From a virus: a stretch of DNA of 25,067 nucleotides. The stretch lies in IMG/VR virus record IMGVR_UViG_3300047562_002562, positions 1 through 25,067 of that record; one strand, written 5' to 3'. Each line of letters opens with the position of its first letter. The first letter of the stretch is position 1. The notes below the pieces were generated by a model. That model ran no database searches. It saw nothing but the letters and a program-made list of their open reading frames with translations, and was not told the DNA's origin. Shown piece after piece: positions 4,270-24,213 of this stretch. The position numbers and the translations under genes were made by a program.

Positions 4270-6603
4270 ATGGCAAATTATAAAAAGTCATTCAATTTTA
4301 GAAATGGTGTTCAAGTTGATGATGATAATTTTATTATTAATGCAAATGGTTTAGTTGGTATTGGAACATCAATACCAACAGAACTTTTAGACATTTATGG
4401 TGGAATAGTAAAAGTAACAGGACTTGTAACTGCAACTTCACTTTATGCTAAAAATTCTATAGTTGAAAATTTAAAAGTAGACCAGGGAATAAATGCGTCT
4501 GGAGTAATTACTGGAACTGTCTTTTCTGGAAGTGCTTCCGGATTAACAGATATATATGCAATTGCGGTTGACGGTTGGTACATAACAGGTGGAACAATAT
4601 CTACAAGTTCTAAAGTTGGAATTGGAACAACAAATCCATCATACCAATTTCAAGTTGGTAATGATCCTGTAAATACAGATTTTGAGGGATTAACTATTGA
4701 CATTAATGGAAATTTATATTCTAGTGGAGATTTTTCATTTGGTAATGCAAATATATCAGGTTTAACTACAACTAAAGACTTTGAAGTAACTGGTATTGCT
4801 ACTATTAGTGATTTAAATGTATCAGGACTTACTACGACTAAAGACTTTGAAGTAACTGGTATTGCTACTATTAGTGATTTAAATGTATTAGATTTAACTA
4901 CAACTAAAGACTTTGAAGTAACTGGTGTTTCTACTATTGGGTCTTTAAATGTATCCGGTTTAACTACAACTAAAGACCTAATTGTAACTGGTATTGCTAC
5001 TATTAGTGATTTAAATGTATCAGGACTTACTACAACTAAAAACTTAATTGTAACTGGTGTTTCTACTATTGGGTCTTTAAATGTATCAGGACTTACTACA
5101 ACTAAAAACTTAATTGTAACTGGAATTGCTACTATTATTAGTGATTTAAATGTATTAGATTTAACTACAACTAAAGACTTTGAAGTAACTGGTATTGCTA
5201 CTATTAGTGATTTAAATGTATTAGATTTAACTACAACTAAAGACTTTGAAGTAACTGGTATTGCTACTATTAGTGATTTAAATGTATCTGGACTTACTTT
5301 AACTGATGAATTGCATGTAAATAATACAATTTCTGGAGTCGCTAACACTGCATTAGGACTTTCTGGTACACCAAATATTAATGTTGGAGTTATAACTGCT
5401 TCTAAAATTGAAATAACATCTAATAAATTAGTTATTGATGACAATGGAAATGCAAATTATTCTGGAGTTATAACTGCAAGTAATTTTATTGGATCATTAA
5501 CTGGAGTTGCATCTACTGCTGCTTCATTAATTAAAAATATAAATATTGAAATTGGAATAGCTACAGTAAATAATAGTCTATATACAAATTCAATTGGAAT
5601 TGGAACTAATTTACCAAACAGTGATTTACATTTAAGGAAAAATAGTTCATCCAGAATACAAATAACAAGTGATTCTGAAGAATCGTCACTTGTAATAGGA
5701 AGAAGTGTAAACACTCAAGACAAATCTGCATCTTTAAGATTTGGAGATACGAGTGGTATTTTCTCCTATAGTAATAGTAGATCATTAGATATTATAAATT
5801 ATGATAATGGAAATATTAATTTTTACTTAGAATCTGGAACTATTGGAATTGATACAGGTTCTTTTTATTGGAATAGAAGACCTAATTTTTCAAATTTAAT
5901 GACTTTAACATATGATGGAAAACTTGGAATTGGTATTACAAATCCATCAAATACATTACACGTTGTTGGAACTTCAACTGTTACCGAGGATATTTATGTA
6001 GGTAGAAATGTTTCAGTTGTTGGTAGTTTAGATGTTAAAACCATATTAACAGCAAATATTTTAACGGTAAGTAGTAACATCAATGCTACTTTAAATGGCG
6101 ATGTAAATGGTAATGTATACTCCAATACTGGAATTTCAACATTTAACCAAATTGATGTTACTGGAATTGCAACATTATCTAATATTATTACAAATGGTAT
6201 TGGAATTGCAACAGATAATATTGGATCAAATTATTTACAAGTTAGGTCTCCTGGTATTACTGGATTTTTTGTTAATAATCAAGGTCAGGTTGGAGTTAAT
6301 ACTGATATAATTAATAGTAGTGATCTTTATCTTGTATCAATTGATGCTTGTGCTGGAGTTGGATTATTTAAAGGTGTTGGTGTAGGAACAACTTCACCAC
6401 AATGTTTTGCTGATTTTAGTTCTGCTGGATATTCTGCAGGTGGTTTTGGAAATAGTCTTCAGTTTATGCTTCCTCCTAAAATTACAACAACAGTTAGAAA
6501 CAATTTATTTGTTGTAGAGGGAGCATTCATTTATAATACTACTAATAAAAGATTGGAAATTTATAATGGTGATGGTTGGTCTGGTATTGCTACTGTACCA
6601 TAG
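4270..6603 (+). CDS. Long tail-fibre-like virion protein with 22-residue repeats
   Basis: This encodes 777 residues. It opens with ANYKKSFNFRNGVQVDDDNF and a (G)IGT(S/T)-containing segment, as in cyanophage fibre proteins, and contains many NGNLYSSGD / GVGIGT-type beta-strand repeats. A central array of eight 22-23-residue units (4759-5289) alternates KDFEVTGIATISDLNV with LIVTGVSTIGSLNV. After further IGIGT(N/T) segments it ends in a distinct domain (CAGVGLFKGVGVGTTSP, then MLPPKITTTVRNNL, then RLEIYNGDGWSGIA), typical of fibre C-termini; there is no S74 chaperone. A role as receptor-contacting fibre or whisker is inferred from composition and neighbours. No clear Shine-Dalgarno precedes the ATG. 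Confidence 0.85.
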   Translation: MANYKKSFNFRNGVQVDDDNFIINANGLVGIGTSIPTELLDIYGGIVKVTGLVTATSLYAKNSIVENLKVDQGINASGVITGTVFSGSASGLTDIYAIAVDGWYITGGTISTSSKVGIGTTNPSYQFQVGNDPVNTDFEGLTIDINGNLYSSGDFSFGNANISGLTTTKDFEVTGIATISDLNVSGLTTTKDFEVTGIATISDLNVLDLTTTKDFEVTGVSTIGSLNVSGLTTTKDLIVTGIATISDLNVSGLTTTKNLIVTGVSTIGSLNVSGLTTTKNLIVTGIATIISDLNVLDLTTTKDFEVTGIATISDLNVLDLTTTKDFEVTGIATISDLNVSGLTLTDELHVNNTISGVANTALGLSGTPNINVGVITASKIEITSNKLVIDDNGNANYSGVITASNFIGSLTGVASTAASLIKNINIEIGIATVNNSLYTNSIGIGTNLPNSDLHLRKNSSSRIQITSDSEESSLVIGRSVNTQDKSASLRFGDTSGIFSYSNSRSLDIINYDNGNINFYLESGTIGIDTGSFYWNRRPNFSNLMTLTYDGKLGIGITNPSNTLHVVGTSTVTEDIYVGRNVSVVGSLDVKTILTANILTVSSNINATLNGDVNGNVYSNTGISTFNQIDVTGIATLSNIITNGIGIATDNIGSNYLQVRSPGITGFFVNNQGQVGVNTDIINSSDLYLVSIDACAGVGLFKGVGVGTTSPQCFADFSSAGYSAGGFGNSLQFMLPPKITTTVRNNLFVVEGAFIYNTTNKRLEIYNGDGWSGIATVP
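4759..5289 (+). repeat. Eight tandem 66/69-bp coding repeats in the second fibre
   Basis: Units begin at 4759, 4825, 4891, 4957, 5023, 5089, 5158 and 5224. Seven are 66 bp; the unit at 5089 is 69 bp because of one extra ATT, giving ATIISDLN instead of ATISDLN. The unit consensus is (G/D)LTTTK(D/N)(F/L)(E/I)VTG(I/V)(A/S)TI(S/G)(D/S)LNV. The near-identity of DNA between units indicates recent duplication. Confidence 0.93.
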
Positions 6604-23450: not shown

Positions 23451-23507
23451 GACACTTACTAAACTGTCACAAAACTCCTTTTCAAATTTCCCTTAATCCC
23501 CTATAAT
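23451..23507 (+). promoter_or_regulatory. Promoter cassette K, no hairpin
   Basis: GACAC at 23451 follows the TAG stop directly; AACTGTCAC at 23462; TATAAT at 23502. The spacer is pyrimidine-rich without a stem, with only a poor -35 (TTTTCA, 23479-23484). The leader to the ATG at 23535 differs from the F-H type (AAACCAAACAAAC). Confidence 0.8.
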
Positions 23508-23534
23508 AATACACAAGTAAACCAAACAAACATT

Positions 23535-23870
23535 ATGACAACTACTGCTTCTCTTTCTACGATCGAAATCAACGGTGTCACATACGCTCCTGTTGGGTCT
23601 CAAACAACTGTTCCTACCGGAAATCGTGCAGTGTGCGTCATTGACCGTGGGTGGATTTTCGCTGGCGATATTGAGACCGATGAAGTAACTAAAGACCTTG
23701 TAATTCACAATGCTATCCATGTATTTCGTTGGGAATCTATCGGTTTCACTGGTGTTCTTGAAAATCCAAAGGATAGTAAAGTAACGCTCAAGACCTCTCC
23801 TTATCCGGTTCGTGTTCCGTCAGGTTCGGTAATCTTCACTGTTCCTGTGAATGAAAATTGGGGTAAGTGA
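23535..23870 (+). CDS. Beta-rich protein, 111 aa, G/C-richer than its neighbours
   Basis: MTTTASLSTIEINGVTYAPV begins a product with no membrane segment, a strongly beta pattern (NRAVCVIDRGWIFAGDIE, VKSDS-free core, PYPVRVPSGSVIFTVPV) and few charged helices. Codons such as ATC, AAC, ACC and CGT are far more frequent than in the genes before, suggesting high expression or a different origin. It is a single-gene unit: cassette K upstream, a strong terminator right after the stop. It resembles small abundant phage proteins of unknown role, but no family is assigned. Confidence 0.75.
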   Translation: MTTTASLSTIEINGVTYAPVGSQTTVPTGNRAVCVIDRGWIFAGDIETDEVTKDLVIHNAIHVFRWESIGFTGVLENPKDSKVTLKTSPYPVRVPSGSVIFTVPVNENWGK

Positions 23871-23879
23871 TTTTTTATG

Positions 23880-23906
23880 GAGGGATTGACTCCCTCTTTT
23901 TTCTTT
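23880..23906 (+). terminator. Intrinsic terminator after the 23535 gene
   Basis: GAGGGA (23880-23885) pairs with TCCCTC (23891-23896) around TTGAC, followed by TTTTTTCTTT. It isolates the upstream gene. There is no promoter cassette before the next ATG, so the Gly/Tyr repeat gene depends on read-through or an unseen promoter. Confidence 0.85.
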
Positions 23907-23916
23907 GGAGATTATT

Positions 23917-24213
23917 ATGATTGAATACTTCTATCCTGTAGGTTCCGGTTACGATGACGGTTCCGGTGACGGTTACGGTGACGGTGACGGTTACGGTGGC
24001 GGTTCCGGTTACGGTTCCGGTGACGGTTACGATGAAGGTTCCGGTTACAGTTACAGTTCCGGTTACGGTGACGGTTACGGTTCCGGTTACGATGACGGTT
24101 ACGGTTACGGTTATGGTGGCGGTTCCGGTTACGGTTCCGGTTACGGTTACGGTTATGGTGGCGGTTCCGGTTACGGTTACGATACAATTTCCACAAGAAC
24201 CAGGAGAACTTAA
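23917..24213 (+). CDS. Low-complexity Gly/Tyr/Ser/Asp repeat protein, 98 aa
   Basis: The ATG at 23917 has a GGAG site 7 bases upstream. After MIEYFYPV, residues 9-88 are almost purely alternating Gly with Tyr, Ser or Asp (SGYDDGSGDGYGDGDGYGGG and similar), ending DTISTRTRRT. Such (G/S)Y(G/S) sequences are intrinsically disordered and, in FUS-like proteins, drive condensate or fibre formation through tyrosines; that behaviour is inferred only from composition. Gly is nearly always GGT and the partner codon ends in C or T, in contrast to the AT-rich neighbours. The DNA is clearly G/C-richer than the window average. It has a clean start, ribosome site and stop, and is followed by coupled small genes, so it is probably a real gene rather than a repeat with chance coding. 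Confidence 0.75.
   Translation: MIEYFYPVGSGYDDGSGDGYGDGDGYGGGSGYGSGDGYDEGSGYSYSSGYGDGYGSGYDDGYGYGYGGGSGYGSGYGYGYGGGSGYGYDTISTRTRRT
23941..24180 (+). repeat. Hexanucleotide microsatellite-like tract (GGT-NNC) with a 42-bp tandem duplication
   Basis: About forty alternating codons GGT and TAC/TCC/GAC/GAT make a six-base period. The final part is a tandem 42-bp duplication (24097-24138 and 24139-24180) differing at one base (TCC versus TAC). Such tracts change length by slippage in steps of 6 bases and stay in frame. Confidence 0.9.

Follow-up and report, generated by a model that had tools for sequence, protein, structure and literature searches.

The window analysed here, meaning the whole stretch of 25,067 bases of an IMG/VR virus record, matches the Synechococcus phages S-SRM01 and S-PM2 at the DNA level. 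Close to its end lie two small genes on the same strand, together with the signals and internal features collected in Table 1. The downstream gene codes for a protein in which glycine alternates with another residue (Gly-X), and the upstream gene codes for a predicted Sm/LSm-like protein, called here the partner. An earlier note on this DNA had dealt with the downstream gene; it overlooked the Sm-like gene upstream and the near-universal pairing of the two, which is the real finding at this locus.

Table 1. Genes, signals and internal features of the two-gene region, in window coordinates
Feature	Position	Strand	Remarks
Promoter-like site TTTTCA-17-TATAAT, 10/12	23479..23510	+	5' of the Sm-like gene; consensus match only
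Partner gene, 111-aa Sm/LSm-like protein, DUF6948 superfamily (divergent branch)	23535..23870	+	Predicted from AF2, Foldseek/VIA and profile chain
Hairpin with T run, terminator/attenuator-like, between the two genes	23879..23904	+	Consensus-type prediction
Shine-Dalgarno GGAG	23907..23910	+	6 nt 5' of ATG
Gly-X gene, 98 aa, ATG to TAA	23917..24213	+	YFYPVG head, [GX] tract, basic tail
Gly-X tract, 80 residues, X = Tyr/Ser/Asp, few Gly/Glu	23941..24180	+	Low-complexity, predicted disordered
42-bp tandem duplication, one mismatch, 14 codons, in frame	24095..24178	+	
Basic C-terminal tail DTISTRTRRT	24181..24210	+	Cyanophage-type branch keeps T-I-[ST]-T-R-T-R-R

The Gly-X gene of the window

The Gly-X protein is laid out as a MIEYFYPVG head, the tract and a DTISTRTRRT tail, and contains 38 Gly, 21 Tyr, 13 Ser and 11 Asp. 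Glycine occupies 35 of the 40 even and 3 of the 40 odd positions of the 80-residue core, an alternation equalled by none of 100,000 residue shuffles, which bears out the earlier description of about 80 residues of Gly alternating with Tyr, Ser or Asp. The other sequence features reported in that note were also recovered: GGT serves for nearly all Gly (35 of 38 codons; in six further ORFs of the window its share is 144 of 289), the tract is G/C-rich in an AT-rich background (0.57 against 0.33 for the window), the one-mismatch 42-bp tandem duplication is present, and the ribosome site is a good one. The Gly-X protein has no family match in Pfam or PHROGs, and its only match in NCBIfam is at chance level. 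We consider that this ORF probably is translated into a real Tyr-rich low-complexity protein.

Structure prediction agrees with the disordered style that had been proposed for this Tyr-rich protein. AF2 predicted no structure (pLDDT 31.5, pTM 0.13, every residue below 50), and the protein is apparently disordered. Tyrosine makes up 24% of the tract, with gaps of 2, 4 and 6 residues and one of 8, an arrangement of Tyr stickers spaced by Gly and Ser. The tract contains 0% Gln or Asn, so the term prion-like used in the earlier note holds for the FUS-type resemblance in Gly, Ser and Tyr only and fails in the yeast-type, Q/N-rich sense. A Tyr/Gly-rich disordered motif (F/YGG) of hnRNPA2 reportedly binds both RNA and DNA (PMC9067507). 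Like such low-complexity domains of FUS and hnRNPA2, the Gly-X protein is rich in Tyr and Gly, predicted to be disordered and regular in its Tyr spacing; unlike them, it keeps a strict dipeptide alternation, lacks Gln and Asn in the tract of the window, and is a small protein standing alone.

The nearest good candidate promoter for the gene pair is the one upstream of the Sm-like gene, in a region where 10 promoter-like sites were observed and 4.1 expected, all of them consensus matches only. The lone match overlapping the gap between the genes (23886-23915) scores 9/12, a weak score such as chance alone would produce. The hairpin of the window lies at 23879-23897. In part of the branch nearest to the window a hairpin with a T run, of other sequence and similar shape, also separates the two genes at five other loci (L002, L003, L005, L019 and L020), and it is absent from L021-L025; it may be an attenuator by which the relative amounts of the two proteins are controlled. 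Among the nearby cases that we collected, the Gly-X start overlaps the partner stop in 104 of 136, mostly as ATGA or TAATG, and this type of overlap is a layout known from translational coupling.

Two tail-fibre-like ORFs elsewhere in the window, at 834-1614 and 4749-5298, also contain internal repeats, with a 102-bp unit in 7.7 copies and a 66-bp unit in 8.3 copies.

The upstream partner: predicted fold and family

Built with 75 relatives, the AF2 model of the partner reached a pLDDT of 90.7 and a pTM of 0.74. When this model was compared with the PDB by Foldseek, archaeal SmAP1 came first (probability 1.00, E 1.2e-3), followed by LSm and Sm proteins, and VIA-align gave Z 8.2 both to an LSm1-7 chain and to a Sm chain of the 6S snRNP, and Z 7.6 to 3by7, a protein from an uncultured source whose description notes its structural similarity to the Sm/LSm group; Foldseek E values near 1e-3 and VIA Z scores near 8 also arise from common small-barrel arrangements. 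The best matches among predicted viral structures were uncharacterised phage proteins and proteins named DUF6948. Together, the partner is predicted with high confidence to be a Sm/LSm-like beta-barrel.

The partner resembles Sm, LSm and Hfq proteins (SmAP1, 3by7) in its predicted barrel, over residues 29-108, and in the Sm1-like spacing DRGWIFAGD (G-x4-G), which is kept with an aliphatic strand: G39 in 65 and G44 in all of the 75 sequences. It differs from them in an identity of about 10-15% and in the Sm2 signature, Arg-Gly, which is not kept; positions 96-97 read E, A, Q or S followed by Gly, or lack Gly, with no Arg, and the Sm2-equivalent position is P-x-G or without Gly. A PDB sequence search with the partner profiles gave no match. 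Since the fold is a prediction and the Sm2 Arg-Gly is not kept, RNA binding must not be assumed for this protein; it is putative, as is ring formation.

The Pfam model of DUF6948 (PF22253) misses the window partner, for which no Pfam family exceeded its cut-off, and matches 12 of the 75 relatives (alignment A2), the best at 7.1e-34. Profile comparison led from the window branch (A3) to an intermediate set (A5) with probability 99.4 and E 1.8e-21, and from this to the DUF6948 set (A4) with probability 97.4 and E 1.4e-11; the direct comparison of the window branch with core DUF6948 was weak (probability 5). Judged by these profiles, the window partner joins the DUF6948 superfamily through intermediates. 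The core members of that superfamily likewise adjoin Gly-X tracts. DUF6948 is a name without a function, and no mention of it was found in the literature searched.

A short motif, Y-x-P-V-G-S, is common to the N-terminus of the Sm-like protein (GVTYAPVGS, 23574-23600) and the head of the Gly-X protein (YFYPVGS, 23917-23946). A common origin or a common binding site is possible.

Pairing of the two genes

Fourteen relatives of the upstream gene were found in viral contigs, and most of them precede another Gly-X gene, in DNA that differs widely from case to case (GGTTAC, GGCAAC, GGAGAT). A profile scan extended the set to 87 partner loci, 81 of which have a tract of at least 12 units. Among the other six, the partner stop is directly followed by a tract that is shorter or degenerate in L025, L070, L080/L081 (one sequence) and L091, very short in L091 and L080 (about 5 Gly-X units), and in L068 the tract begins and the contig ends there. 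The tract precedes the partner in a few loci (L047, L062/L063 and L218), and in L004 it is displaced by an inserted endonuclease-like ORF (5331-5960) between the Sm-like gene and the hairpin and Gly-X gene. The tblastn searches of the phage collection gave no match with the window partner or a core DUF6948 protein as query; other relatives used as queries did match.

The pairing was also approached from the tract. A codon-degenerate pattern of Gly-X DNA, blind to the neighbouring genes, found at least 120 stretches in the viral collection. The matches listed comprise 112 tract loci, 20 of them with less than 500 nt of upstream sequence; for the remaining 92, a gene of the partner superfamily lies within 1.5 kb upstream in 85 and within 400 nt upstream in 82. 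Partner genes that had at first been overlooked proved to be DUF6948 proteins, and all five that were submitted exceed the curated Pfam cut-off. Over the 1.03 Mb of blind-scan loci listed, 83 partner genes adjoin a tract and 8 lie elsewhere. Furthermore, in a sample of 150 bacterial genomes DUF6948 occurred in three, each time with a tract directly downstream.

Because public contigs are redundant, a fair count is one of clusters. All partner proteins, those of the blind scan being taken from the matches listed, fell into 94 clusters at about 70% similarity, and a tract lies within 0.5-0.7 kb in 91 of these, being displaced in the remaining three. The blind-scan clusters had a tract by selection, and the independent direction is given by the partner-led set, in which 16 clusters are exclusive and 7 occur in the blind-scan set too. 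These results show well that the Sm-like gene and the Gly-X gene form a widespread two-gene phage cassette; in more than 90 distinct phage gene groups, the Gly-X gene almost always adjoins a Sm-like gene. A tally of 123 neighbouring genes yielded varied functions, mostly in DNA metabolism, and no constant third partner was found among them.

Several variations on the tract were seen. It is fused in frame to a C-terminal domain in L130, L151, L219 and L227 (also in L095, L122 and L136), a domain with the pattern ..AKGYIL..DLT.. / ..FAHG.T.. / WHHxLTGSCxxGRxxF.. and no Pfam match; in L136, sequence similar to this domain follows DUF7666 and the Gly-X tract. A small domain, ..V..xGAC..GV.., lies N-terminal to the tract within the same ORF in L097, L192, L209, L114, L184 and L206, and the clearest example tested belongs to no Pfam family. 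In L181 the tract that accompanies the DUF6948 gene, near position 4710 as counted on the reverse strand, is (Gly-Thr/Gly-Pro)n and not Gly-Tyr/Asp.

The pair is present in the named phages Rheinheimera phage Barba1A (gp018/gp017), Pectobacterium phage Sabo, Vibrio phage IKEMa6-1, Chlorobiaceae phage CV-1-33 and Iodobacter phage PhiPLPE, and in several of these it sits among genes for RecE, RecT, Erf, SSB, DNA polymerase and exonuclease. Annotation of the Gly-X gene is poor: the ORF annotated in CV-1-33 is in the wrong frame (MAMAMA), the gene is unannotated in PhiPLPE, and it is called 'lamprin' in MW202613; in the GenBank entries MT192033 (gene25), NC_011142 (near 46.05-46.27 kb) and MW202613 it is wrong-frame, missing or 'lamprin'. 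DNA polymerase and an exonuclease flank the pair in Rheinheimera phage Barba, where it belongs to a published non-structural module that its authors termed host interaction (PMC6715854). The same group reports, for the Barba transcriptome, an early cluster in which replication genes are dominant (PMC9305737).

The Rheinheimera phage isolates also gave length alleles. The earlier note had named frame-breaking length variants as one observation that would speak against its reading; among 60 records listed of the 115 that match, the matching stretch measures 840, 846, 870 or 882 nt, with differences in 6-nt steps only. At the protein level whole Gly-X units are gained or lost and the head is kept. 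The tract had also been called recent or under strong codon pressure; recent is right for its length and wrong for the gene, which is widespread.

Selection on the protein and possible functions of the pair

The mixture of X residues is constant in every G+C class, from below 35% to above 55% (Tyr 0.38-0.44, Asp 0.21-0.25), while the Gly codons shift from GGT to GGC across these classes. A residue mix that stays fixed as the Gly codons follow genome G+C means that selection acts on the protein. The tract typically has 33 units and reaches 67, and the gene occurs in up to seven tandem copies with conserved ends. In the branch nearest to the window both ends are nearly invariant (YPVG; T-R-T-R-R), and in the canonical DUF6948 branch the Gly-X protein usually has no basic tail. 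The tract could instead be a DNA-level repeat, serving as a recombination, packaging or replication signal, or an untranslated slippage tract with accidental open frames, and its period of 6, unusual G+C and further open frames are what such an element would display; we regard this as hardly credible, given that the DNA words differ completely among relatives (GGT TAC, GGC TAT, GGA GAT) and the protein pattern stays, that the start overlap and both ends are kept, and that the length alleles preserve frame and unit.

Two further candidates were considered and rejected. Diversity-generating mutagenesis, suggested by AAC-type codons at X, does not fit as the main cause with an X limited to Tyr, Asp, Asn and Ser, and is also contradicted by X codons that shift to NAT in some phages. 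The antisense frame of 133 aa and the +1 frame of 147 aa have no ribosome site, no overlap of start and stop among relatives and no conserved ends, all of which the Gly-X frame does have.

Our best reading of the pair, tentative and possibly correct, is a Sm-like nucleic-acid-binding assembly multimerised by a separately encoded Gly-X chain, plausibly as a condensate. The first gene would supply a small protein of the DUF6948 superfamily, folded as a Sm/LSm-like beta-barrel, and the second a disordered (Gly-X)n protein, with X mostly Tyr, Asp, Asn or Ser and often with a short basic tail. Assembled as a ring or multimer, the Sm-like protein would bind RNA or single-stranded DNA of the phage (or host). 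Many Sm, LSm and Hfq proteins have a low-complexity tail in cis, as in eukaryotic LSm4, SmB and SmD and at the C-terminus of Hfq; the Gly-X chain would provide a tail of this kind in trans. The Tyr residues of the chain would be its stickers, with Gly for flexible spacing, and its basic tail would touch nucleic acid or the ring. Early in infection, many such units would come together in a ribonucleoprotein or replication-associated assembly, which is plausibly a condensate. The variation of the tract by whole units, and of the gene up to seven tandem copies, would on this proposal arise because valence matters and exact sequence does not. The complex of the two proteins, its binding of nucleic acid and its condensation are steps that we infer.

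A parallel is provided by polyphosphate, which acts in trans on Hfq, a Sm protein of the host, and scaffolds it into condensates (preprint PMC11839049). Both these HP-bodies and the tails of LSm4, SmB, SmD and Hfq join a Sm protein to a low-complexity or polymeric element able to drive assembly, as the phage pair would; the phage element differs from all of them in being a separate gene, mostly with start/stop overlap, and strictly Gly-X. The more specific proposal, that the phage Sm-like protein and its separate Gly-X polymer jointly make up a ribonucleoprotein or replication condensate specific to the phage, and correspond in split form to the tailed eukaryotic Sm/LSm proteins, is on balance doubtful.

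Other functions for the pair have to be weighed against such an assembly. Hfq has a disordered C-terminal tail that tunes, in cis, how it binds ligand or assembles its ring, and the Gly-X protein might be a soluble disordered co-factor of the same kind, a detached tail acting without phase separation. This is rather unlikely; the same pairing and coupling evidence would fit it, and tracts of about 5 units, as in L091 and L080, would hardly be enough for condensates, but the typical 33 units, the maximum of 67 and the amplification to seven copies suggest that valence or mass matters. Less probable still is a role in counter-defence or host interference, in which the Sm-like barrel would capture a nucleotide, a signal or host nucleic acid. 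Its Gly-X neighbour would sequester a host factor or be a growth inhibitor restrained by the barrel. The two are small phage genes of patchy distribution, the tract evolves fast and the gene is amplified, as is usual for arms-race genes, and since polyphosphate and host Hfq silence prophages, according to one report (PMC10954037), a phage antagonist would make sense; against this, the window and DUF6948 proteins found no match in the PADLOC defence library, whose coverage excludes anti-defence proteins, and the neighbours are varied genes of DNA metabolism.

The surface polymer or virion scaffold proposed in the earlier note finds no support, and we hold a structural role of this sort to be highly unlikely. 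The silk-like alternation of Gly and the tail-fibre-like genes at the other end of the window would accord with it, but the pair lies outside the structural block and adjoins DNA polymerase and exonuclease, Erf, or RecE and RecT in named phages, the Barba pair belongs to a non-structural module (PMC6715854), and the start of the Gly-X protein, MIEYFYPVG, has no hydrophobic leader.

A description of the Sm-like/Gly-X pair was not found in the literature searched (DUF6948, GYGDGYG and phage low-complexity proteins). The pair is kept in phages of Gammaproteobacteria and of green sulfur bacteria and in genomes of gut bacteria; it is also kept in many metagenomic phages, cyanophage-like ones among them. 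If the two proteins cooperate, they would provide a minimal natural model of a Sm protein and a Tyr/Gly polymer that together make a nucleic-acid assembly, and the use of condensates by phages early in infection would become directly testable with two small genes.
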